Below, one piece after another: positions 26,583 to 36,381 of a DNA stretch of 64,000 nt (positions are counted from its first letter, which is position 1; each line of letters opens with the position of its first letter). The stretch is from Methylocystis sp. ATCC 49242. Lineage in GTDB: Bacteria > Pseudomonadota > Alphaproteobacteria > Rhizobiales > Beijerinckiaceae. Under the pieces are notes generated by a model. That model did not search any database. It was not told the origin of the DNA and saw only the letters and a list, made by a program, of their open reading frames with translations. Where the stretch lies: assembly GCF_000188155.2 (NCBI RefSeq), contig NZ_KE124774.1, positions 1,090,736 through 1,154,735 on the forward strand, written 5' to 3'. The position numbers and the translations under genes are program-made.

Positions 26583-26660
26583 CGGAGTGTAGCGCAGCCC
26601 GGTTAGCGCACTTGTCTGGGGGACAAGGGGTCGTGGGTTCGAATCCCGCCACTCCGACCA
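26583..26660 (+). tRNA. tRNA-Pro (anticodon GGG), integration target
   Basis: The acceptor stem CGGAGTG pairs with CACTCCG and an encoded ACCA tail follows. The anticodon stem CTTGT/ACAAG closes a CTGGGGG loop, so the anticodon is GGG. The T arm is GTGGGTTCGAATCCCGC. The 3' half from 26615 is the left copy of the 47-bp att repeat; the tRNA is intact because the element restored its 3' end. Confidence 0.97.
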
Positions 26661-26661
26661 T
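26615..26661 (+). repeat. attL core, 47-bp direct repeat
   Basis: It begins TCTGGGGGACAAGGGG in the anticodon loop and ends with the discriminator, CCA and one extra T. It is identical over all 47 positions to 36335-36381. Confidence 0.95.
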
Positions 26662-26761
26662 AAAATCAAAGACTTACGTAAGCTAAGACAGAGCGATAAG
26701 GCGACGGGGGTTCACGGGGGGTTCAAATCCCCCGAATCGGAAATGGCCCTTGTGGCTGGCG

Positions 26762-26944
26762 CTACAGAAGCCGCCGGTTTGTCCCGTCCGACTCCAGCCC
26801 GACAAGAAAAAAGCCCGAGCGCCGCATCTTCTCGGCGGCCCATGCCGTCGAGAGGCATTGCGACCAAGACCAGCCGAGCCCGAGACGCTTGCCGTCGCGG
26901 TAGCGTTTATGGGCTCCTCTCATAACGGCGGCGCGGTCATACAT
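26762..26944 (-). CDS. Small element-borne protein, 60 aa
   Basis: It opens MYDRAAVMRGAHKRYRDGKR, then LGLGWSWSQCLSTAWAAEK. This is a basic, helix-rich small protein of a type often seen in prophages and integrative elements; function unknown. The ATG at 26944 overlaps the end of the upstream 76-residue gene, so the two are probably translated together. It is the last gene before attL. Confidence 0.6.
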   Translation of the reverse strand: MYDRAAVMRGAHKRYRDGKRLGLGWSWSQCLSTAWAAEKMRRSGFFLVGLESDGTNRRLL

Positions 26945-27167
26945 CGCCGCCGGTCCCCTGCCCCTCGAATTGCGCTCGCGCCGCTGCGGCTGCGTCTTCG
27001 ACCTGTCCCGCCAGCGCCCGGACGGCTGCGGCGTCGGCCGGATCGTGGAAGAGGTCGTCATTCTGGAGAAGCAGCCAGAGAACGCGCGACATGTCCGCAG
27101 CCGTGTCGAGATGCTGGCCAAGTTCATAGCGGCCGCCCGTGGTGGTGGTGGTGGTGGTGGTGCTCAT
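26937..27167 (-). CDS. Small element-borne protein with poly-Thr start, 76 aa
   Basis: ATG 27167 has a strong GAAGGAG site. The protein starts MS followed by eight threonines encoded by a run of ACC codons, then GGRYELGQHLDTAADMSRVL and an Ala-rich helix. The trinucleotide run (27141-27163) could slip by whole codons without a frameshift. It has acidic, helical character; function unknown. Confidence 0.65.
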   Translation of the reverse strand: MSTTTTTTTTGGRYELGQHLDTAADMSRVLWLLLQNDDLFHDPADAAAVRALAGQVEDAAAAARAQFEGQGTGGDV

Positions 27168-27404
27168 GTTCGTCTCCTTCAATGGAATAAATCGCCGCCG
27201 CGCGATCGGCCAAATCGAAGCACAGGCAAATAATTCCGGCAAGCGTCGCTGTAGAAACGCCCGTATCGGCAGCTTTAGTGGTTTTTTATACAGTATGTTT
27301 TGTCGCTCTACGAAAGCGACGAAAAAACTATTCTTTGTCGCGCCAGCTGAAAACAGGGAAGAAGGATCAAGGTGGAGTTGTCCACCTTGAAATCAATCCT
27401 TGCA

Positions 27405-27824
27405 CTACGAGGATAGTTTTTGCGCCGCGCGCAGTGCTTCAGCGTGTTCCGCAGGCCGCGCCGGCAGCGGCGGCGAGCCCGGCGGCAGGCCGGGCGTTAG
27501 GTCGGTCCCATAAAATTGCGGCGAGGCCCATCTGAGAGAATCGAGACCCGCAGCCCATGCCCGCACGAGGGCGACGTCGACCATCGCCTTGCGGCCCGCC
27601 GCTCGCGCCTCATCGGCGGGATCGAGCAGCTTCCTTTTCGCCAACAGCCGAGCCTCCGGTGGCCTGTAGACGTCGGTCAGATAGGCGAAGAGTTCGTCAG
27701 GGTCCTCCATCGCCGAAACCGCGTCGATCGCCGGAATGACAATCTGGCGAATGCGGTCCTCAGACTGAAAACGATGGATTGCGCAGCCCCGGTAGACTGC
27801 GCCGTGCGGCATGTCGTCGCCCAT
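27405..27824 (-). CDS. Hypothetical element protein, 139 aa
   Basis: It starts MGDDMPHGAVYRG at 27824, overlapping the stop of the 94-residue gene by one base; a start at 27848 is also open. The body is helical (ELFAYLTDVYRPPEARLLAK, RKAMVDVALVRAWAAGLDSL) with a proline-rich tail. I do not recognise the family. Coupling to the upstream gene and the phage-like context suggest a packaging, head-assembly or interference role, but nothing in the sequence proves it. Confidence 0.6.
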   Translation of the reverse strand: MGDDMPHGAVYRGCAIHRFQSEDRIRQIVIPAIDAVSAMEDPDELFAYLTDVYRPPEARLLAKRKLLDPADEARAAGRKAMVDVALVRAWAAGLDSLRWASPQFYGTDLTPGLPPGSPPLPARPAEHAEALRAAQKLSS

Positions 27825-28108
27825 CAGCCGCGCCGCCCATCCAGCCATTGGATCACGTGCGTTTCCGGCCCTGCCTCCGACTCCTCGCGAACGCCGTCGC
27901 CGCCGAGCAGGGTCCGCAAAACCTGGCCCTTCACATGCGCCGGCGTGTCGGGGTCAGTCGCCAGGCGGCCCAACAACCGCCGCACGTCTCCCTTGCTCAG
28001 TTCCGGGGAGGATTCAATAAGGCGCTGCAATTGCTGCGCCTTCGTCGGCCGGCCGCCGCGGTTGGGCGCGGGCTTTGCTGGAACCTTTTTCGCTCGTTTT
28101 GTGACCAT
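27824..28108 (-). CDS. Basic small protein, 94 aa (possible small-terminase-like)
   Basis: ATG 28108 follows AAGGA. It has a very basic N-terminus (TKRAKKVPAKPAPNRGGRPT) followed by a helical region (AQQLQRLIESSPELSKGDVR). A basic head with a GRPT motif is seen in some phage small terminases and DNA-binding proteins; this is suggestive only. No large-terminase partner is found in the element. Confidence 0.55.
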   Translation of the reverse strand: MVTKRAKKVPAKPAPNRGGRPTKAQQLQRLIESSPELSKGDVRRLLGRLATDPDTPAHVKGQVLRTLLGGDGVREESEAGPETHVIQWLDGRRG

Positions 28109-28367
28109 GTTCCTTAAACTCGCAATAATGGGGATATATTCGCACAAATACCGCGAAAAATGGGTAATAGCAACCAACATACGCCCGCAATCCTACGATT
28201 TAGGCCATTTTTCCTATTCTCGCGCGGACATCGCCGCGTGAGCCCCTCACCGGTGCTACGCCCCTGATTTCAGGAAGGTTTGACCCTCCCCCCTGGCAGG
28301 GAGAGCGGGGCGCGCGCCGATACATCCACGGTCGCGACGCCCCATATCAGGCGACATTGCCGCCGGA

Positions 28368-28526
28368 TTATTTGGCCGGCGCGTCTTCAGAAAGCCCGGC
28401 CTTGATGGCGTCGACTGCGGCGCGCAACTCGGCCGCAAGCTGCGCCTCGATGAAATCGAGAGCGCCATCATGATCGAATCCGCTGGCCTTGCAGCGCGCG
28501 TATAGGGTCGCAAGGTCGCCGATCAT
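28368..28526 (-). CDS. Small element protein, 52 aa
   Basis: The frame runs from ATG 28526 to TAA 28368: MIGDLATLYARCKASGFDHD, then a helical, acidic stretch ending EDAPAK. The start overlaps the stop of the 126-residue gene as ATGA, typical of the coupled genes in this element. The antiparallel longer frame over the same bases looks like a shadow. Function unknown. Confidence 0.6.
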   Translation of the reverse strand: MIGDLATLYARCKASGFDHDGALDFIEAQLAAELRAAVDAIKAGLSEDAPAK

Positions 28527-28903
28527 CTCTTTCTCCCCTTCTTCGTCTCGCCGCTGGCCAAGCGAGCTTCGAGCACAGCGACGCGGCGGGCCAGACCCTC
28601 TATCGACTTCGCCGCGTGTTCGCGCTCCCGCACGATGACGCCTTGCAGGAGCGCCAGCAGCACGCCCCTGCGCACGAAACCGTCGTCGTCATCGGCCACA
28701 GCCGCCGGCGGCGCAGCCCGCGAAGGGGCGGGCGATTGCGGGACCGTTGCGCCATCACCCTCGCGCGCCCATCCATCAGCGGCGCCGGCAAAGGGGCGCG
28801 GCTTGCCGAGTGTCTGATTGGCGCGGCTTAGCGCCTCTTCCGCGCGTTCTGCGGCGCGGGCGCGGAGCATGTCCGCGACCATCTGGCCTTCGTCTTCGAT
28901 CAC
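28523..28903 (-). CDS. Small head-region protein, 126 aa
   Basis: The start is inferred as GTG 28903, overlapping the capsid stop (TGGTGA), because the coding character begins there (VIEDEGQMVADMLRARAAER). There is an acidic helical N-terminus, an Ala/Pro linker, and a C-terminal coiled coil (SIEGLARRVAVLEARLASGE) ending in KKGRKR. Upstream residues in the same frame read through the capsid gene and are noise. Position right after the major capsid gene suggests a head-assembly or scaffold-like role; this is inference. Confidence 0.6.
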   Translation of the reverse strand: MIEDEGQMVADMLRARAAERAEEALSRANQTLGKPRPFAGAADGWAREGDGATVPQSPAPSRAAPPAAVADDDDGFVRRGVLLALLQGVIVREREHAAKSIEGLARRVAVLEARLASGETKKGRKR

Positions 28904-29937
28904 CAGCTCACCCCCGTCATGACTGCAACCCTGTCGCCGCGGGAAACCCAGGCACAATCGAGAATCACGCGAATGAAGATGCTCGCGGTCTGAAAGGCAC
29001 TCCGCACCGGGTCTGCGACGACCGAAGCGCCCGAAACGACCGGCAACGGTTGGTCGGACATATGAACGATCGCCGACTCGGAGCGCATGATTTGCATCTC
29101 GCCAACGCCGGCCGCGAAGCTGTCCAGGTCGATCGCCAGCGCCGTGCCGACGGGCAATCCGCGAGTCGCCCAAAACGGAACCGGCGATTGCGGATAGCGT
29201 AAGAGCGCATGGGCGTGCTCTCGCGGGTTCAAGATGATCGCTGTCCTTCCGCCGCCGCCAGCGTCAACGACGGCCTGCATTAGCGCCGCAATGTCTGCGT
29301 CGACGAAGCCGGTTGATGGCGTCGCAACCACGCCGTCGCGCAGACCCCGATGGGCCGCATCGCTGGCGGGCGTGTCGGAGAAAAGCGCGGCGTCGAGCAT
29401 TCCCGCCAAGGTTTCGCGCACAAGCGCGTCAAACACAGCGCGGCCATTCGAGCGCCGCCAAAGTTCGCGGCTCAGCGGAATGATGAAGCTAATTTTTTTT
29501 GTCGGGCCGAGGTCGGCCGCGGCGAATGCGCCGCTGACGATCGGAATTTCATCATCTTCCGCGACCCAACTGGGACTTCCGACGTTCGTGTTGATCGGGA
29601 AGGATATGGACTCACGACGGTTCAAATCGAAACGCGCGCCCGCTGCGAAAAGCTTGCTCGCCGCAGACAGCGGTGCCAGATCGGATAAGTAGCCCTGCAC
29701 GGCGGATGAAACCAGCTCATCGCCCCATCCGACGGTGGTGGACGCGCCGGCAATTGCGTCCGCGCGCGCGACCGGCGCCATCAGCAACGCCTTCGCGGTC
29801 TTATCCTCCCGCAGTTGCGCTTCAGCGTCCGCGACGCGGTTCGAGGCTTGCAGATACACCGCCCACGCCGCGTTACGCACGGCGGTGGCATGGCTGCGGG
29901 TTGGCGCTCGCAACTGCTCAATGACGTGTCTCGACAT
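28900..29937 (-). CDS. HK97-like phage major capsid protein
   Basis: A 345-residue protein. Residues 1-75 are helical; residues 80-340 look like the HK97 fold, with SISFPINTNVGSPSWVAEDD in the E-loop/P-domain region, KKISFIIPLSRELWRRS along the spine helix, ILNPREHAHALL, and a C-terminal beta segment ending RGDRVAVMTG. ATG 29937 with GGAAGGA upstream starts MSRHVIEQLRAPTRSH. The N-terminal extension is short for a cleaved scaffold domain and no prohead protease gene is seen. It is the only clearly structural gene in the element. Confidence 0.8.
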   Translation of the reverse strand: MSRHVIEQLRAPTRSHATAVRNAAWAVYLQASNRVADAEAQLREDKTAKALLMAPVARADAIAGASTTVGWGDELVSSAVQGYLSDLAPLSAASKLFAAGARFDLNRRESISFPINTNVGSPSWVAEDDEIPIVSGAFAAADLGPTKKISFIIPLSRELWRRSNGRAVFDALVRETLAGMLDAALFSDTPASDAAHRGLRDGVVATPSTGFVDADIAALMQAVVDAGGGGRTAIILNPREHAHALLRYPQSPVPFWATRGLPVGTALAIDLDSFAAGVGEMQIMRSESAIVHMSDQPLPVVSGASVVADPVRSAFQTASIFIRVILDCAWVSRGDRVAVMTGVSW

Positions 29938-29982
29938 TTTCGCGAATCCTTCCGTTCGGAACCTTCGGATTGTTCCCATGAT

Positions 29983-30198
29983 TCACCGGTCCGCGCCGTT
30001 ACGCGTAACAGCGCAAAACATTCGAACGAGAGCGGCGAGCGCTTGCTCTACCGCTCGCGGGTCGTCTTCCGTCGGCGAAAGATGCCCATGGAGCTGCAAC
30101 GCTATTTCGAGTTCCGCAACATCGGCTTCCACGCGGAACACGCGCCGGCCCTCCCGGCGCCTGGCGCGACTTCGGCGCATCCGCGCGGCGGCCGTCAT
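29983..30198 (-). CDS. Small basic element protein, 71 aa
   Basis: It opens TAAARMRRSRARRREGRRVF, then RVEADVAELEIALQLHGHL. Short Arg-rich proteins with this ending recur in rhizobial prophages as putative DNA-binding or ribbon-helix-helix-like proteins; the family is uncertain. The start overlaps the previous stop as ATGA, and the capsid gene begins 45 bases downstream. Confidence 0.6.
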   Translation of the reverse strand: MTAAARMRRSRARRREGRRVFRVEADVAELEIALQLHGHLSPTEDDPRAVEQALAALVRMFCAVTRNGADR

Positions 30199-30431
30199 CT
30201 GAAGCCCCTTTCCGCCGCGCGCCGGCGCCGCTCGATCATGCCGCGTAGGCGCACAATCAAAGCGTCGGCGCGGAAAAACGCCGTCAGCTCGTCATCGCCG
30301 CCCGCGACGAAGGCGGCGGCGGCGCGGCGCCGGACGCCCTCGATCTCCGCGTCGAGTCGCGGCCCGTCCAGGTGGGCGAACTGCTCCGCCCGCCGATCGA
30401 GCTCAAGAATCGCATCGCCCAAGTCGATCAT
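30195..30431 (-). CDS. Small helical element protein, 78 aa
   Basis: ATG 30431 overlaps the previous gene's TGA (ATGA). The sequence MIDLGDAILELDRRAEQFAH and the Arg/Ala-rich remainder are all helix. No recognised family. It is the second of three coupled small genes upstream of the capsid gene. Confidence 0.6.
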   Translation of the reverse strand: MIDLGDAILELDRRAEQFAHLDGPRLDAEIEGVRRRAAAAFVAGGDDELTAFFRADALIVRLRGMIERRRRAAERGFR

Positions 30432-30661
30432 GAGCGCCCCCACTTTCTCGCCAGCGCTTCGAGCTGCGCGGGCGTCGCGAGCCGGCGCTTGCTTGCGCGC
30501 ATGATGTCGAAAACGTCGGGCTGTGTCGGCGCCGCGGGGGGCGTGGTCGGCGTGGCGGGCGTGGTCGCCGCGCGCGATGATGATGATGATGGTGCGCGCG
30601 GCAATCGAAGTAATGGGCGGCCGGAGGGGCCACGCCGCGTAGAGTCGAGATTCAACTTCAT
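30428..30661 (-). CDS. Small element protein, 77 aa
   Basis: ATG 30661 follows GAGAGGCG. The basic N-terminus MKLNLDSTRRGPSGRP is followed by a Ser/Thr/Pro/Ala linker of low complexity (PATPTTPPAAPTQ) and a helical C-terminus (VFDIMRASKRRLATPAQLEA). It is the first gene of the capsid-side operon, just downstream of the iteron-like region. Function unknown. Confidence 0.6.
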   Translation of the reverse strand: MKLNLDSTRRGPSGRPLLRLPRAPSSSSSRAATTPATPTTPPAAPTQPDVFDIMRASKRRLATPAQLEALARKWGRS

Positions 30662-31004
30662 CGTTTCGCCTCTCAATTAGTTACAAATTCAACCCAATTG
30701 ATCGAAACGCGGGTTTCTACTCGTACGCTGCAAAGTCCATCTGGCCCGTCTGACACATCTGCCACAGCGTAACTATTTGTTTTTACGCCGTTATACAGAT
30801 GGTCCAGATGGGCCAGATTTTTCGTCTTATTACCTATAAATAGGAATAAGGGTGCCGCCGATGGCCCTCTTTCCTCTCTTCTATTTATATTTCTATTTCT
30901 AACTATAATTATATATGGACCATATGGACCATCTGGATATATATAATAAAAACAGATAGTTATGTTGGGCCAGATATGTGTCAGATGTGCCATGTGCCGG
31001 TTCG
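30662..31004. other. Iteron-like, AT-rich intergenic region: candidate replication origin
   Basis: About 340 bases without a gene, placed directly behind the primase-helicase. The short motif GGNCCA with ATC/GAT flanks recurs: CCATCTGGCCC (30737-30747), GGTCCAGATG (30801-30810), GGGCCAGAT (30810-30818), ATGGACCAT twice at a 9-base interval (30915-30923, 30924-30932) and GGGCCAGAT (30967-30975). TCTGACAC (30749-30756) and GTGTCAGA (30978-30985) form an inverted outer pair. Between them lies an A+T-rich stretch (30835-30960). Iterons beside an AT-rich element after the replication gene is the layout of satellite origins. The promoter of the capsid operon must also be here. Confidence 0.6.
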
Positions 31005-33461
31005 TCAAAACGGCCCCCCGTCGTCATCGTCCACATCCGCCCGGCGGTTGCATTCCCGCGCGCCATCGGTCACGCGCTCACAAATGCCGAGCGACAGGTT
31101 TACCAGTTGCGTGAGTTCGTCAGCTTGCGGGATGTGGAAGCCGCGGCAGTTGCGATCGCCAGCGTGTCGAACACGTGCGTTTTCTCCGAGAATTTTTGCG
31201 AGCATACGGGCGAAGTGTATTTTCTGGTCGACGCGCCCGCCCTGCATTCTCTGCGCCCCCGCGTATGCGTCGTACAGCTTCGTTGTCGCGTGGTCAGCGC
31301 CAAGCTCCAATTGCAAGTGCTCTTTCCGCACACCACGTTCATACGCTTCGATGGCGCCGTCGGCGGCGCACGACAACAACCATTGATGGATACTAGACGC
31401 GCTCCGAATTTGTTGCTCGGCAAGCTCAAAGGTCCGCGGCATGTTTCGCGGATGGAAACTCCCGAGCTTTTTTCGTTGCAGATAATGAAGCAACTGCCCG
31501 TAGCCGCCGGCTTGCAAGTCGTCATAAATTTTATCGAACCATGCGCGGTCCCCGACTTTCTCGTCCGACACTTCGCAAATGAACCAGCGACGCGCGTCGC
31601 GCCCGGCGGGAACGCTCCAAGCGTGGTTGGTCGTCAGAATTGCGTGAAGCCGGTTCAGCGCCTGATACGCCTTCCGTCCCTTCGGATTTATGCGCAGCGT
31701 CGCGCCGGTAATCGAGTGCTTAATTTTGTCTGCGGTCTTAGGGTCGCCTGCAAACAGCGCTTCCTCCAATTGCACAAAGGAAGCAAACTCTATGTCGTCG
31801 ACATGGGTTCCGACTATTTCCGCCGGGTCAGAAATTGAAACGGCGTGCTTTCCGAAAATGACGCGCATTGCATCGGAAACGGTCGACTTGCCGGAACCTT
31901 CTGATTCCGATTTTAGGACGATAACAGTCTCCGCGCGCTTCTCAGGATTTTGCACGGCCCATGAGAGCCATCGCACGATGTATTTAAACTTGCGACGGTC
32001 ACGGCGAGCGATAACAACCCACAAATGCGCAAGAAATGATTTAATTTTGTCGCGCCCCTGAATCGGAGCGACGCCAAAGCCCCGCCAAAAGTTATATTCG
32101 TCTATGCGCGCGGTTCGGTGTGGATCGAATATCGCGCGACGGATCGGCGGGCGCTTCGGATGGGCCTTCCACCATTTTGCAGCCGGAAAAAATTTTTCGT
32201 CGCCGTTGTCGTTTTGGGTTTTGACAGCGACGTTTGCCAAATAACTTTCAAAGGATCCTCGCGCGAGAACATGATCGGCGCCGGCGGCGTCGCGATGCAC
32301 AACATTCACTTCCCCCTCTCGGTCGACCAATGCAAAGCGCGCGGAAATGGCCGGCAACAATTCGTCGGCGGGATACGCGCCGCCGGGAATGTCTGGCAAG
32401 CCATCCGAGCAAGTATGGAGAGCATGGCCGCCGCCGCCGCCGGCCGCCTCGACCTTCGCCATGTGCCGCTCCTCCGCGCGTCTGATCTCGCCTTGAAGCA
32501 CTGGATCGTTCTCATCCACCGGGCCAAAGGTTTCCGCGAGCGCAGCCGCCCTCTCCGCCCCTGTAAACGCCTCCTCTACCCACGCGCGAAGTTCGTTCAT
32601 GCCCTTGCCTTCGCAATGGCCGTGGTGGCATTGGAACCCGCCCGATCCCGGCCGATAGCCCGCCTCGTCGCGGGCGTCCGAATGGTCGGCGGCCCATGGG
32701 CATTTGATCGCCACGAAGCCATTGTCGTTGGGCGTCGCGTCAATCAGCATCCCCCGCGCGTCAAAGAGCTTCATCAGGGGGTCTATGCCGACCTCGGCGG
32801 CCGTTGCCTTCCTCGTATGGCCGCCGCCCTTGAAGCGCGCCAGCGCCTCGGGGGAGATGTCGACGTCAAGCTCCTCGGCCATCTGCTCGACCGTATAGGC
32901 CCGTGAGGGCTCCCAAACGTGCATGACGTGCGGCCACGGCTTGCCCCCGTTGGCGGCCACGACGGCGGGCTTGCAGTTGGCTCCCACGGGCAGGCGCACC
33001 ACGCGCGTCACGCCGACCATGCCGGGATCGCGCAGCGACGGGTTGATCAGTTCGTCGGAGATGATGCTGTCTATCAACGCGGCGATGACGCGCGCGTCGC
33101 GCCCGTTCGTGATCTTGAAGCCGTAGTGGAAGTTGCCGGGCGAGGTCTCCAGAACATATGTCGGGAGGGGGATGACGCGCAGAAGCTCCTTCAGATTGAT
33201 CTTCGTTCCCACGTCGTCGATGACGATGGCGAACTGCCCGTCGAAGCATTCGGCGCGGCGAACGAAATGCCCCGCGGTCGATTCACGGAAGACCGAGACG
33301 CAGTAGTAGTTGGCGGTATTCCATGCGAGCGCCGGAAGCATCGACACGGCGGGATAGACCACCCAGGACTTGTCGCCCGTGGACACGGGAACGCGCTTCC
33401 AGTCCTCCCCTGCGAGCGCTTCGAGGAACTGCTGATTAGTGATCCTGATACGATTTCGCAT
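31005..33461 (-). CDS. Satellite replication protein: primase-helicase (DUF5906/D5-like)
   Basis: An 818-residue protein. The N-terminal third looks like an archaeo-eukaryotic-type primase (VIDDVGTKINLKELL, TSPGNFHYGFKI). A Cys/His cluster (CPWAADHSDARDE, CHHGHCEGKG) at about 265-295 may bind zinc. The C-terminal half is a superfamily 3-like helicase with Walker A SESEGSGKST and a following acidic FVQLEEAL, as in virulence-associated E and DUF5906 proteins. ATG 33461 has GGAGG 5 bases upstream. It should initiate replication at the adjacent iteron region. Confidence 0.85.
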   Translation of the reverse strand: MRNRIRITNQQFLEALAGEDWKRVPVSTGDKSWVVYPAVSMLPALAWNTANYYCVSVFRESTAGHFVRRAECFDGQFAIVIDDVGTKINLKELLRVIPLPTYVLETSPGNFHYGFKITNGRDARVIAALIDSIISDELINPSLRDPGMVGVTRVVRLPVGANCKPAVVAANGGKPWPHVMHVWEPSRAYTVEQMAEELDVDISPEALARFKGGGHTRKATAAEVGIDPLMKLFDARGMLIDATPNDNGFVAIKCPWAADHSDARDEAGYRPGSGGFQCHHGHCEGKGMNELRAWVEEAFTGAERAAALAETFGPVDENDPVLQGEIRRAEERHMAKVEAAGGGGGHALHTCSDGLPDIPGGAYPADELLPAISARFALVDREGEVNVVHRDAAGADHVLARGSFESYLANVAVKTQNDNGDEKFFPAAKWWKAHPKRPPIRRAIFDPHRTARIDEYNFWRGFGVAPIQGRDKIKSFLAHLWVVIARRDRRKFKYIVRWLSWAVQNPEKRAETVIVLKSESEGSGKSTVSDAMRVIFGKHAVSISDPAEIVGTHVDDIEFASFVQLEEALFAGDPKTADKIKHSITGATLRINPKGRKAYQALNRLHAILTTNHAWSVPAGRDARRWFICEVSDEKVGDRAWFDKIYDDLQAGGYGQLLHYLQRKKLGSFHPRNMPRTFELAEQQIRSASSIHQWLLSCAADGAIEAYERGVRKEHLQLELGADHATTKLYDAYAGAQRMQGGRVDQKIHFARMLAKILGENARVRHAGDRNCRGFHIPQADELTQLVNLSLGICERVTDGARECNRRADVDDDDGGPF

Positions 33462-33512
33462 TTGGCCTCCAGTTGAGGATGGGGCCGCGCGGGTTGCTTT
33501 TGTCGCCGGTTT

Positions 33513-33546
33513 CAGGTAGGAAGGAGATGCTTGGACATACTACCTG
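33513..33546. promoter_or_regulatory. Inverted repeat upstream of the primase gene
   Basis: CAGGTAG (33513-33519) and CTACCTG (33540-33546) form a 7-bp inverted repeat with a 20-base spacer, about 50 bases before the primase start. It is a possible operator for the AlpA-like or another element regulator. Confidence 0.3.
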
Positions 33547-33552
33547 ATATCG

Positions 33553-33581
33553 GCGTCGCTCCCCCCGAGCGGCGCTTTTTT
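33553..33581 (+). terminator. Hairpin with T-run reading rightward, against local genes
   Basis: GCGTCGCTC and GAGCGGCGC pair with one G-U around a CCCCC loop, followed by TTTTTT on the plus strand. All annotated element genes here run leftward, so it could stop an antisense transcript or be a coincidental structure. Confidence 0.45.
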
Positions 33582-33586
33582 GTGGA

Positions 33587-33802
33587 TTAGCGCGCGTCCC
33601 GCGCGATCTTCCGCAATGTTTGGACAAACCGGCGCGGGCCGCGCCAGTCGCTCGGTGAGACGGGCACTGTCGCCCGTATGGTCGCGCCGCCGGGCGTCTC
33701 GAAGGTTGCGCGAAAATGGCGGCCGCGCGCTACGTCAACTATCTTGAAGCCCGCAACCGCCGCGGCGTCGACGTAGGCTTTCGCTCCGCTTGTCATCCGC
33801 AT
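33587..33802 (-). CDS. Small element protein, 71 aa
   Basis: It opens MRMTSGAKAYVDAAAVAGFK, and the second half RHFRATFETPGGATIRATVP ends in a basic helix. The pattern (a beta-hairpin then SPSDWRGPRR and RKIAR) is that of short phage proteins with a HicA-like or double-stranded-RNA-binding-like fold; I cannot assign it further. It sits between the AlpA gene and the primase gene on the same strand. Confidence 0.6.
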   Translation of the reverse strand: MRMTSGAKAYVDAAAVAGFKIVDVARGRHFRATFETPGGATIRATVPVSPSDWRGPRRFVQTLRKIARDAR

Positions 33803-33840
33803 GTGCCACCCCCGGATTACGGTTTACGGAAAAGGGATTT

Positions 33841-34050
33841 TCACGCGGCCTCGGTCTGCGCGTCTCGCTCTGCGCGGATTTTCTCGTCCCACGCGTCTAT
33901 CTCGTCCGCCAGCCACGCGACCGCGCGGGGGCCGATTTTCACGGGTCGCGGAAACTGCTTTTCTCGTACGAGGCGATGCAGTGTCGGTTTCGAGAAGGGG
34001 ACTCGCGCGAGAACTTGTGGCTCGCGCAGATAACGGGGGGCGCTCTTCAT
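33841..34050 (-). CDS. alpA: AlpA-family excisionase / transcriptional regulator
   Basis: A 69-residue MerR-like winged helix-turn-helix: RYLREPQVLARVPFSKPTLH, then FPRPVKIGPRAVAWLADEID. AlpA proteins of satellites and prophages control integrase expression and excision. ATG 34050 follows AAGGAG. It is likely the first gene of the replication operon (alpA, 71-aa gene, primase). Confidence 0.9.
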   Translation of the reverse strand: MKSAPRYLREPQVLARVPFSKPTLHRLVREKQFPRPVKIGPRAVAWLADEIDAWDEKIRAERDAQTEAA

Positions 34051-34147
34051 TGGCGATCGCTCCTTATTGCGGGCGACCTTTTGAGTCGCCCTTGTGATCG
34101 GACGATCTCCCTAATAATCACAAAGGAATGCAGCTCCTAATTATGCA

Positions 34148-34193
34148 ATTGTGCGGATTGAAAAATTTTTCCGCACAATTATTCCGCACAATT
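34148..34193. promoter_or_regulatory. Inverted and direct repeats of the octamer TGTGCGGA
   Basis: AATTGTGCGGA (34148-34157 and neighbours) and TCCGCACAATT (34170-34180) make a perfect 11-bp inverted repeat. A second TCCGCACAATT follows (34183-34193) inside the last codons of the leftward gene. The region also forms an A5T5-centred hairpin. It lies between the integrase operon and alpA, so an operator or a transcription stop is plausible. Confidence 0.4.
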
Positions 34194-34823
34194 CTTGCGA
34201 GGCCCCCGCGGGCCACGCTTCCCATTTCCTGTAACAGATTTGGCGATATCGCGCGCCCGATCGCGGGGGAATTTCGGCAGCGCCGCCCGCACAATTTTTG
34301 CGGCGTCGTTTTGACTAATGAAGCCCCCGCGTTTCACTTGTTCCGTCGTTATGATTGCTCGCGCCTCGTCATCGCATACGCCGTTTTCCGCGGGCGCCAC
34401 GAACAGCCCTTTCAGTGAGCCGCTCACGCTACATATGAGCAAATCGGTGTAGACGGGCGCCTTGTCGAAATACCCGTCGCCCCATACCGGCGCGCCGTCC
34501 CCGCCATCGCGCGTCCATTGCGGCGCGCGGTCGTGTCCCCACCGTTGCGCGGTTGCAGATTCCATGTGAATGGCAAGTTCGATCCACTCGACGGCGGCAA
34601 TGTCGCGGCGCTGCATATCCTCGGGCGTACGAGGCACATAACGCATTGCCCCGAGGTCGCCGTGTAAGCCTTGCTCAATGACGCAATCATAGGCGCTCGC
34701 GGCGATACGGCCGCTTTGCAAATGCGCGACCAGCTGTGACAGGAAATCCTCTTCGGCGATTCCGGGCGCGTCGACCTTCGCGCGTTCGAATGCTTCCGTA
34801 ACGGTCAGGAACTTGCTCGTCAT
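34179..34823 (-). CDS. Hypothetical element protein, 214 aa
   Basis: ATG 34823 overlaps the integrase stop (ATGA), so it is co-translated with int. It is a soluble, mixed protein: MTSKFLTVTEAFERAKVD, a middle with HDRAPQWTRDGGDGAPVW, and a basic C-terminus GNGKRGPRGPRKN. No motif I recognise. Accessory genes next to a satellite integrase sometimes encode regulators or phage-interference proteins; nothing here decides that. Confidence 0.65.
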   Translation of the reverse strand: MTSKFLTVTEAFERAKVDAPGIAEEDFLSQLVAHLQSGRIAASAYDCVIEQGLHGDLGAMRYVPRTPEDMQRRDIAAVEWIELAIHMESATAQRWGHDRAPQWTRDGGDGAPVWGDGYFDKAPVYTDLLICSVSGSLKGLFVAPAENGVCDDEARAIITTEQVKRGGFISQNDAAKIVRAALPKFPRDRARDIAKSVTGNGKRGPRGPRKNCAE

Positions 34824-36103
34824 TTGCGCCCCCGCAGCTTCACGACATTGCCGCCGGTTGCCGGTTCGAGAATCTCCGCAATGTGCGCTTCCCACAATTC
34901 GAGCGCCGCCCGCTTCTCTTTGAAACGATCGTGTTTGTCATAGTGCATCGAGTGAATGTCGCCGTAGGAATGCGCCAGCAGCGCCATACGATCTTCGCGC
35001 AGCACGCCCAGCGCGGCGAGTCCGGTTGCGACCGTGCGCCTGAAATCGTGCGGAGTCGGCGGGTTCGCCTTCAGCGAAAGGACGGCTTCCCGATCGGGGC
35101 CATCCGGGGTCAATGTCGGGACAATGCGCCGCACCGCTTGCGAGACGGAATGACGCGCGATCGGCCCCCGGCTGGCGAAGGTCGAAGGGAACAGGTGCGC
35201 CTGCCCTTCCACCATGTCCCGCATCTGCGCGCGGACGATCTCCAGCGCCATCGGCGCCAGCGGGACGACATGAGCCCGGCCGCCCTTCATTCGAGCCGCA
35301 GGAAGCTCTATGCGGGCGCGGGCGCCGTTGTCGACGTCCTTGATCTCGGCGAGTGCAATCTCGGTCACTTCGCCGGGGCGCTGACCCGTCAGCAACAGGA
35401 AGCGCATAGCGGCCGCGACCGCCGGGGCGATGTTCGAACGCTCCAGAGCCCGCCACAGGACGCGAATCTCGCCGGGCGAGAGGACGCGCTCCTTCGGTGT
35501 CTCTCGCGCCCGCTTCTTCATGCGGGTCATCGGGCTGTTTTCAAGCAGCCCCGAGTCGACGGCCCAATTGAAGACCTTGGACATGACAGTATGTGTGCGA
35601 TTCGCGCTCGACGGCGCCCGCACGGCGATTTTGTCCAACAGCGCCGCGGCGTCGGCGCGGGTCAGCTTGTCGACCCCGCGCCCGTTCCACTCGGGAAGGA
35701 CATGGACGCGCAGCAGCAGCTCGTCCTGCTGCCAAGACTTCTTTTGGATTCGGGCGTAGCGTTGGAGATATTCCGCCGCGAGCTTCCCGAATGTCAGCGC
35801 CCGCGCGGATTGTTCCCGCCGGGATCGAATCTCGCCTTGCGGGTCAGCGCCGCCCGAGACGGCCACGCGTTGAGTCTCCGCGCGCTCGCGCGCCTTGGCG
35901 AGCGAAACCTCGGGGTAGCGCCCCAGGTTTAACCGCTTGAACGATGTTGAGCCCTGCGGCCGGTAGCGAAAAGTCCATGTTGCCACGCCCGTCGGCGTCA
36001 TGCGGAGGCAGAGCCCCGACACCTTCGCGTCCCAATATTCCGCGCGGGTCGCGCCCGGCTTGATGCTGCGGACGAACGCGTCCGTAAGAGCAACAACAGC
36101 CAT
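34820..36103 (-). CDS. int: Tyrosine-type site-specific integrase (DUF4102 N-terminal domain)
   Basis: A 427-residue recombinase. The N-terminal arm-binding DUF4102 domain (VRSIKPGATRAEYWDAKVSG), a core-binding SAM-like domain (about 100-190), and a catalytic domain with Arg in LLTGQRPGEV, His-x-x-Arg in TPHDFRRT, a late His in LAHS and Tyr in HSMHYDKH are all present. It is 231 bases from attR, with repeated candidate arm sites in the intervening DNA. It should integrate at the tRNA-Pro 3' end. Confidence 0.95.
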   Translation of the reverse strand: MAVVALTDAFVRSIKPGATRAEYWDAKVSGLCLRMTPTGVATWTFRYRPQGSTSFKRLNLGRYPEVSLAKARERAETQRVAVSGGADPQGEIRSRREQSARALTFGKLAAEYLQRYARIQKKSWQQDELLLRVHVLPEWNGRGVDKLTRADAAALLDKIAVRAPSSANRTHTVMSKVFNWAVDSGLLENSPMTRMKKRARETPKERVLSPGEIRVLWRALERSNIAPAVAAAMRFLLLTGQRPGEVTEIALAEIKDVDNGARARIELPAARMKGGRAHVVPLAPMALEIVRAQMRDMVEGQAHLFPSTFASRGPIARHSVSQAVRRIVPTLTPDGPDREAVLSLKANPPTPHDFRRTVATGLAALGVLREDRMALLAHSYGDIHSMHYDKHDRFKEKRAALELWEAHIAEILEPATGGNVVKLRGRK

Positions 36104-36116
36104 CCCGTCTCCCTTC

Positions 36117-36240
36117 TTGAACCCCCGGCGTGAGCCCTTGTCGGGGTTGTCCCCCGCGAGCCCTTCCCGCCGTGCGGGGGTTCACGGGGGACAGTAGGGG
36201 TTCAAAAGGGTCGATATGTCGCGATTTCTCTTGAACCCCC
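36117..36240. repeat. Candidate integrase arm-type sites (TTGAACCCCC family)
   Basis: TTGAACCCCC occurs at 36117-36126 and 36231-36240, and its complement at 36176-36184 (GGGGGTTCA, then CGGGGG) and 36196-36205 (AGGGGTTCAA). Two more copies lie beside attL at 26706-26714 and 26717-26726. Clustering near both ends and overlap with the int promoter region fit arm-type binding sites. Confidence 0.55.
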
Positions 36241-36334
36241 GTGAGACGAATTGACAGCTTTCGCCATTGAAATGCAAGTGTTTTCTGATAGCTCTTGGAC
36301 AAGTAAAAATAGGTATGATTTCCTACCTTGGTTC

Positions 36335-36381
36335 TCTGGGGGACAAGGGGTCGTGGGTTCGAATCCCGCCACTCCGACCAT
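36335..36381 (+). repeat. attR core, 47-bp direct repeat
   Basis: A perfect copy of the tRNA-Pro 3' half without its 5' half, so not a functional tRNA. It marks the right end of the element. Confidence 0.95.

Follow-up and report, generated by a model that had tools for sequence, protein, structure and literature searches.

How could a satellite that carries a gene for a phage shell, but no recognizable gene for the machinery that fills it, be packaged? The question is raised by a locus of Methylocystis sp. ATCC 49242, within a 64,000-nucleotide stretch of contig NZ_KE124774.1 (the window, whose positions are used below). An element of 9,720 bp at window positions 26612 to 36381, bounded by repeats in a tRNA-Pro(ggg) gene, encodes an integrase, a primase-helicase and an HK97-fold major capsid protein (MCP), and neither a portal, a large terminase subunit (TerL) nor a head maturation protease was detected in it. 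On balance, we lean toward a helper-dependent satellite that would make its own, probably small, shell and borrow portal, protease, terminase and tail from a helper phage.

By anatomy the element is a satellite: it is bounded by attachment (att) sites, has an integrase and replication genes, and contains too few genes for a virion. The two repeat copies (26612 to 26661 and 36332 to 36381, 9,720 bp apart) are identical at 49 of 50 positions, 47 of them consecutive. The 47-bp attL core (26615 to 26661) represents the 3' part of the target tRNA gene, which ARAGORN placed on the plus strand at 26583 to 26660, and repeat comparison showed the attR core (36335 to 36381) to match it exactly, neither core being assigned a strand. 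All genes taken as real lie on the minus strand, in the order integrase, g2, AlpA, g4, primase-helicase, a 343-bp AT-rich gap, gA-gB-gC-capsid-gD-gE, gF-gG, and gH. Junctions from gA to gE measure -16, -4, 3, -4, and -4 bp, with 4-bp overlaps at gB-gC, capsid-gD, and gD-gE, and also at integrase-g2; a 262-bp gap separates gE from gF, gF and gG overlap by 25 bp, and another gap of 234 bp precedes gH. Promoters and terminators showed no excess over shuffled sequence.

The tyrosine integrase (34820 to 36103), with Arm-DNA-bind_3, Phage_int_M, and Phage_integrase domains (Pfam E values of 5.2e-19 and 5.5e-15), the AlpA-type regulator or excisionase (33841 to 34050; PF05930, 5.1e-14), and the primase-helicase (31005 to 33461; RepB_primase, 8.6e-7, and the D5-like DUF5906, 1.5e-12, with the assignment drawn from Pfam and PHROG) all exceed the Pfam cut-offs. 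The unstranded gap at 30662 to 31004 has 41% GC, and CAGAT/ATCTG words occur in it nine times, counting both directions, where 0.68 would be expected; none of 1,000 shuffles reached this number, a statistic conditional on the word having been picked after the sequence had been read. Such a repeat-rich region fits a candidate replication origin. These results bear out the first-pass annotation of this DNA, which had claimed a perfect 47-bp att repeat, an integrase, an AlpA regulator and a primase-helicase, an iteron-like gap, and a capsid-side operon on a single strand with intact, ATGA-coupled frames.

The MCP gene (28900 to 29979) encodes 359 amino acids (aa) and no fused protease. Hidden Markov models (HMMs) recognized it only marginally, with a Pfam E value of 0.0043, below the family cut-off, and a PHROG E value of 0.0027. 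Despite this, we regard the capsid assignment as firm, based on homologues and fold match. With the window MCP as a query, tblastn at an E value of 0.01 matched 15 phage and 13 plasmid records, the best match (8e-24) being to a plasmid protein of Cupriavidus oxalaticus annotated as a phage major capsid protein, and a ten-row capsid profile matched the solved MCPs 9d9w (6.6e-20) and 8gta (1.7e-9). The AlphaFold model, built from 12 sequences, was weak (predicted local distance difference test [pLDDT] of 54.6, predicted template modeling score of 0.52); HK97 capsids nevertheless ranked first in Foldseek (4.3e-10), with encapsulins also among the matches. Identity to aligned phage and virome MCPs is only 24 to 33%, and peptide patterns revealed no close capsid relative in the genome contigs or viral contigs searched. 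In full-phage relatives a protease is fused in front of the MCP (the open frames are 651 aa long at locus L004 and 638 aa at L005; also L012 and L013), and at that place the window MCP has an N-terminal helical stretch, predicted at low confidence.

The other head genes were sought by Pfam and PHROG scans and by tblastn with ten portal, TerL, and protease queries (from L015, L019, L032, L037, and L046) against 25 sequences. Neither route found a portal, TerL, or head protease in the window element, and the family scans gave no match there for a small terminase subunit (TerS) or HNH. Apart from the integrase, primase, and capsid genes, no gene taken as real is longer than g2, with 214 aa. As positive controls, all three parts were found by tblastn in L012, L013, and L043, which had contributed no query, and in the contributors L019, L037, and L046. 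Portal and protease were found in L032, L038, L039, and, within the 12.6 kb examined, L044, a portal only in L015, and a protease only in L126 and L128. Coverage of L038, L039, and L045 consisted of ORF lists, tblastn, or an alignment row. None of the ten queries matched L010, L011, L014, L017, L018, L034, L035, L036, or L048, nor L016, L127, L152, or L158. For seven MCP-only elements, 57 hand-chosen open reading frames (ORFs) were pooled from their 82 ORFs and earlier ORF lists after integrases, capsids, and previously scanned genes had been set aside; they matched 12 Pfam families, none of them structural (Trypsin_2 appears in two), and the best 25 of 29 PHROG matches name no head, packaging, or tail function. 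The first-pass claims of a capsid gene and of no other visible packaging machinery thus both stand.

Satellites of the phage-inducible chromosomal island (PICI) and P4-like kinds have an integrase, an AlpA-type regulator, and a primase, and P4 reuses or resizes the MCP of its helper. All three genes of this PICI definition are present in the window element, which, unlike P4 and the Staphylococcus aureus pathogenicity islands (SaPIs), carries an MCP gene of its own. General Pfam and PHROG scans, with no dedicated search made, gave no match of the kind of the P4 genes sid, delta, and psu. SaPIs also reuse or resize the helper MCP, as the abstract of PMC12409344 states, and parts of PMC10803314 give average sizes of 9.5 kb for classical PICIs/SaPIs and 10 kb for P4-like satellites. 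Capsid-forming PICIs (cf-PICIs) resemble the window element in having an integrase, a regulator, replication genes, and an HK97 MCP, and in borrowing tails from a helper, as the window element presumably does. However, cf-PICIs encode MCP, maturation protease, portal, connectors, both terminase subunits, and HNH according to passages of PMC10690885, and average about 14 kb according to parts of PMC10803314, whereas only the MCP is recognizable in the 9.7 kb of the window element. Judged by its gene content, with portal, head maturation protease, and large terminase not detected, the element lacks three defining features of cf-PICIs and is a variant of capsid-carrying satellites that was not found in the literature searched.

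Two further groups invite comparison. The Streptomyces satellites MulchRoom and MiniFlayer share with the window element the possession of their own capsid genes; passages of PMC10690885 describe them as encoding a complete set for capsid and packaging, without an obvious replicase, and as having virulent helpers, the tail of MulchRoom being thought helper-derived. PICMIs share int, AlpA, a DUF5906-type primase, and a small gene set with the window element. Parts of PMC10803314 describe them as having no capsid-remodeling genes, lying beside fis in Vibrionaceae, and packaging concatemers, whereas the window element lies at tRNA-Pro. The satellites described in these passages use the shell of the helper or build a whole head, and a satellite with an MCP alone would be a middle state. 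No description of one appears in the titles and abstracts of the literature searched, a search that lies outside the cf-PICI and SatelliteFinder papers.

Is the window element alone in this gene content? Capsid matches were obtained in 8 of 397 genomes of the order and in 10 of 385 genomes of the class, its own genome counted in both samples, and the named relatives include Sinorhizobium (L017) and Ensifer (L116). Gene contexts, read from ORF lists, comprise an MCP with no portal, TerL, or protease detected in the window element, L011, L014, L017, L018, L034, and L036, and an MCP accompanied by a TerS-like gene, again with none of those three detected, in L010 (PHROG, 1.1e-41), L152 (1.3e-28), L048 (4e-5), and L035 (0.0076, weak). 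Elements with an intact MCP and none of the three parts detected were found in other families of the same class, in Sinorhizobium, and on a Cupriavidus plasmid. L010 also has a tape measure (PHROG, 1.4e-86), L048 encodes a 969-aa protein that resembles one by eye with no Pfam match of that kind, and L158 is a 4.7-kb contig that informs little on the rest of its element. L016, admitted on a weak capsid match (7.9e-4), has an ORF list resembling host DNA and was removed from the set of relatives.

Delimiting repeats in tRNA genes were found for L010 (51 bp, 11,546 bp apart), L017 (49 bp, 10,769 bp), L036 (50 bp, 11,002 bp), L152 (47 bp, 10,463 bp), and also L015 (48 bp, 11,605 bp). Weaker repeats were found at L035 (26 bp with 3 mismatches, 10,654 bp apart) and L034 (15 bp, 9,288 bp), and none was found at L011, L014, and L018, whose limits are uncertain. 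MCP-only relatives with tRNA repeats measure 10 to 12 kb, and their cargo differs: L036 carries a DprA-like gene together with SIR2-like and phosphoribosyltransferase-like genes (both by eye), L014 an AAA protein (OLD-like by eye), and L017 a DUF4238 gene. This narrow size range with differing cargo fits a fixed shell volume.

The gene preceding the capsid, gC (29983 to 30198; 71 aa, with a basic N-terminus), served as a marker through alignments and HMMs. The first gC HMM, built from the window element, L010, L014, and L126 and run on the ORFs of 65 loci, matched its four sources (with window-locus copies) and L011 (2.5e-9, before the capsid), and no phage locus among the 65. With gC of the window element and of L010 as queries against the phage collection, and gC of L010 against plasmids, tblastn gave nothing, a weak search at the 25 to 35% identity of this family. 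A five-row gC profile found at least 14 places in at least 12 of 387 genomes of the order, 13 of the 14 being examined. The next recognized gene after gC is an MCP in six of the 14 places (window, L010, L011, L014, L152, and L158). In three others a head protease comes after gC, immediately in L156 and with one small or medium gene in between in L126 and L157 (PHROG E values of 4.7e-7, 3.5e-22, and 1e-13). Neither was found in L153, L154, and L155, and L151 ends at a contig edge. L154 has no recognized integrase and its gC match may be due to chance; L155 has TerS and a tape measure without an MCP. The primase had also been considered as a family marker and was discarded, with matches in 29 of 397 order genomes and in 403 phage records, mostly to the helicase half. 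At L126 (14725 to 16143), the protease half of a protease-MCP fusion is joined to a fibre-like C-terminal domain and no MCP was found; this gC element is the mirror image of the window element. Tentatively, gC could mark a broad satellite family that works by part replacement, each element capturing helper assembly solely via one or a few interchangeable head parts near gC, with an MCP close behind it in six places, a maturation protease in three, and TerS plus tape measure without an MCP in one.

Capsid trees bear on the origin of these shells. In both trees, which have long end branches and a placement of L036 flagged as unsure, the MCPs of the window element, L010, L011, L014, and L017 cluster apart from phage MCPs (support of 81/89 and 92/91, below the star limit), and those of L152 and L158, which also follow gC, fall in the other half of the tree. 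The approximately unbiased (AU) test rejected a single clade for the six gC MCPs (p of 0.00016) and for 13 satellite MCPs (p of 0.0003), which means that satellites acquired MCPs more than once. Judged by this test, the gC MCPs stem from at least two capsid lineages. If the gC family reading holds, it is possible, if short of probable, that the part-replacement strategy evolved, or was supplied anew, on more than one occasion.

How would a satellite with its own shell and a helper for the rest operate? Upon entry or induction of a helper phage, AlpA and the integrase would excise a 9,720-bp circle, which the primase-helicase would replicate from the repeat region. The late operon would yield the MCP, which, aided by the scaffold and protease activity of the helper, would form a dedicated and probably small shell around the helper portal. 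Helper terminase, steered by a site on the element or by an adaptor (candidates are gC or gF/gG), would fill this shell, and helper tails and lysis would complete the transfer. The replaced part would be the MCP, such that the satellite picks its own shell and borrows the costly rest. We infer assembly, packaging, and helper from gene content. A smaller satellite class of this kind had been proposed in the first-pass annotation and fits best; relatives in other families have gC followed by an MCP and no portal, TerL, or protease detected. If true, the shell must form around a foreign portal and be filled by a foreign motor. It then becomes testable how much mismatch among shell, portal, protease, and terminase is tolerated and whether one swapped part redirects packaging. 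The finding also points to a satellite group that a rule demanding a full head module would overlook.

Several points weigh against such a satellite. About 10 kb is also normal for satellites without capsid genes, as parts of PMC10803314 indicate. The ten-query tblastn is blind to unrelated protease families, having missed the S49-type protease of L127 (PHROG, 1.8e-68), and gene-by-gene scanning was confined to the window element, with only some genes scanned in the other MCP-only elements. The model presumes that the MCP would fit a foreign portal and protease, and excision, particles, and transfer are predicted from genes. No evident helper appeared among the portal and TerL loci of the host genome, nor did the capsid profile find a protease-MCP fusion phage there among the best 5 of its 25 candidates.

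The host genome has two portal matches (one with TAA), three PHROG TerL matches (one with TGA), and no PF03354 match. By ORF list, they belong to a gene transfer agent (GTA)-like cluster (L132/L133), Mu-like genes (L136), L134, and L032/L033. The GTA-like cluster comprises TerL, a portal whose matched stretch contains a stop codon, an MCP, and tail genes; a GTA was considered as the helper, with no evidence for it. L134 (14545 to 16244) is an integrase-bearing element whose TerL match lies beside a transposase gene overlapping its end. L032/L033 (G000:C6, about 2,523 to 2,533 kb) is another satellite-like element of this genome; it encodes an MCP, a protease, a portal, an integrase, and, by eye, a tape measure, and it has an 18-bp repeat at tRNA-Arg whose copies lie 10,095 bp apart.

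Could the MCP serve interference instead of shell building? The satellite MCP might co-assemble with or poison the helper MCP, as a size-redirecting or dominant-negative part that would shrink or block helper heads. The single head parts of gC elements, MCP in six and protease in three near the same place, look as if each hits one helper step, and an MCP without protease and portal must share those of the helper anyway. However, these MCPs look like complete HK97 proteins, the 24 to 33% identity of the window MCP to aligned phage and virome MCPs makes mixed shells less likely, and TerS and tape measure in some elements look like building, not blocking. On this evidence, we judge such a role rather unlikely.

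We consider it improbable that the element is a decayed cf-PICI or prophage, now inert after loss of portal, protease, and terminase. Larger relatives do exist, namely, L037, in which MCP, protease, portal, and TerL are all present and the copies of a 21-bp repeat lie 12.1 kb apart, and the full phages L012, L013, L043, and L046. However, the frames are intact and overlapping and the att repeat is perfect, elements with this reduced gene set are found in several bacterial families, five of the MCPs cluster apart from phage ones at the support given above, gC occurs in none of the phage loci examined, and tblastn revealed no portal or TerL remnant. A capsid frame decayed across relatives, named in the first-pass annotation as a finding that would speak against a satellite, was not seen: the frame is open in 11 of 11 satellite tree rows and in L152 and L158. 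Nor was the other such finding, a full prophage of 35 to 50 kb at the same locus, seen in nine congener regions (3.6 to 17 kb), although most of them are short enough for the far end of such a prophage to fall beyond them. No prophage source was seen in the stretch examined, which reached about 16 kb past the tRNA at most.

At this locus, the MerR gene that neighbors the site was detected in 21 of 26 sampled genomes, and an identical 78-base tRNA-Pro lies beside MerR in 12 of 20 loci compared, its own included. None of the nine congener regions, three of which (L102, L105, and L109) stop at contig ends, contains the element or a second att copy (up to 8 mismatches). Their sole protein match is in L105, where an integrase next to the tRNA is 27% identical. 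Genome G785 retains the far flank (pilZ, PAS-like, rhomboid, and rssA), the first of these genes lying 8.1 kb past the tRNA (in the window this distance is 3.4 kb once the element is subtracted), and in G791 an omp-like gene follows the tRNA by 186 bp; only these two, by far flank and flank-type gene, respectively, speak for an empty site. In another family, L036 (3238 to 14289) is an MCP satellite at the same tRNA-Pro(ggg) site.

An encapsulin-like compartment or a defence role for the shell gene, suggested by the encapsulins among the Foldseek matches, is highly improbable, with phage capsids as the best matches, phage MCPs as the sequence relatives, and a location within an integrase/AlpA/primase element.

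Both g2 (34179 to 34823), which overlaps the integrase gene by 4 bp, and g4 (33587 to 33802; 71 aa) have weak Pfam and PHROG matches only, and g2 drew no match in the PHROG scan of the pooled ORFs. The late operon starts with gA (30428 to 30661; 77 aa), followed by gB (30195 to 30443; 82 aa), and gE (28368 to 28526; 52 aa) comes after gD; gH (26937 to 27167; about 76 aa) is the last gene before attL, all four being called as ORFs. By alignments, gF (27824 to 28108; 94 aa) and gG (27405 to 27848; 147 aa) form a conserved pair (27405 to 28108), overlapping or adjacent in four elements: the window element, L126, L127, and L128, the last an IMG/VR contig. Searches for gF and gG in plasmids and for gG in phages gave no match. 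A GRPx motif prompted consideration of gF/gG as TerS, which found no support: Pfam and PHROG gave only weak matches of unknown function, and in hhalign the gF, gG, and gC profiles reached a probability of at most 0.4 against three TerS sets, two of which scored 61.6 against each other. The gG model (pLDDT of 60.7) had no structural match at an E value of 0.001 or below. Finally, gD (28523 to 28903; 126 aa) has a coiled-coil-like C-terminus by eye, and gD-like proteins, also by eye, follow the capsid in L014, L017, L018, L034, and L035. A coiled-coil-like protein recurs near gC or the capsid in L153, L155, L035, and L126; its C-terminal domain also ends PHROG portal and fibre families, and gD appears similar by eye without that domain.

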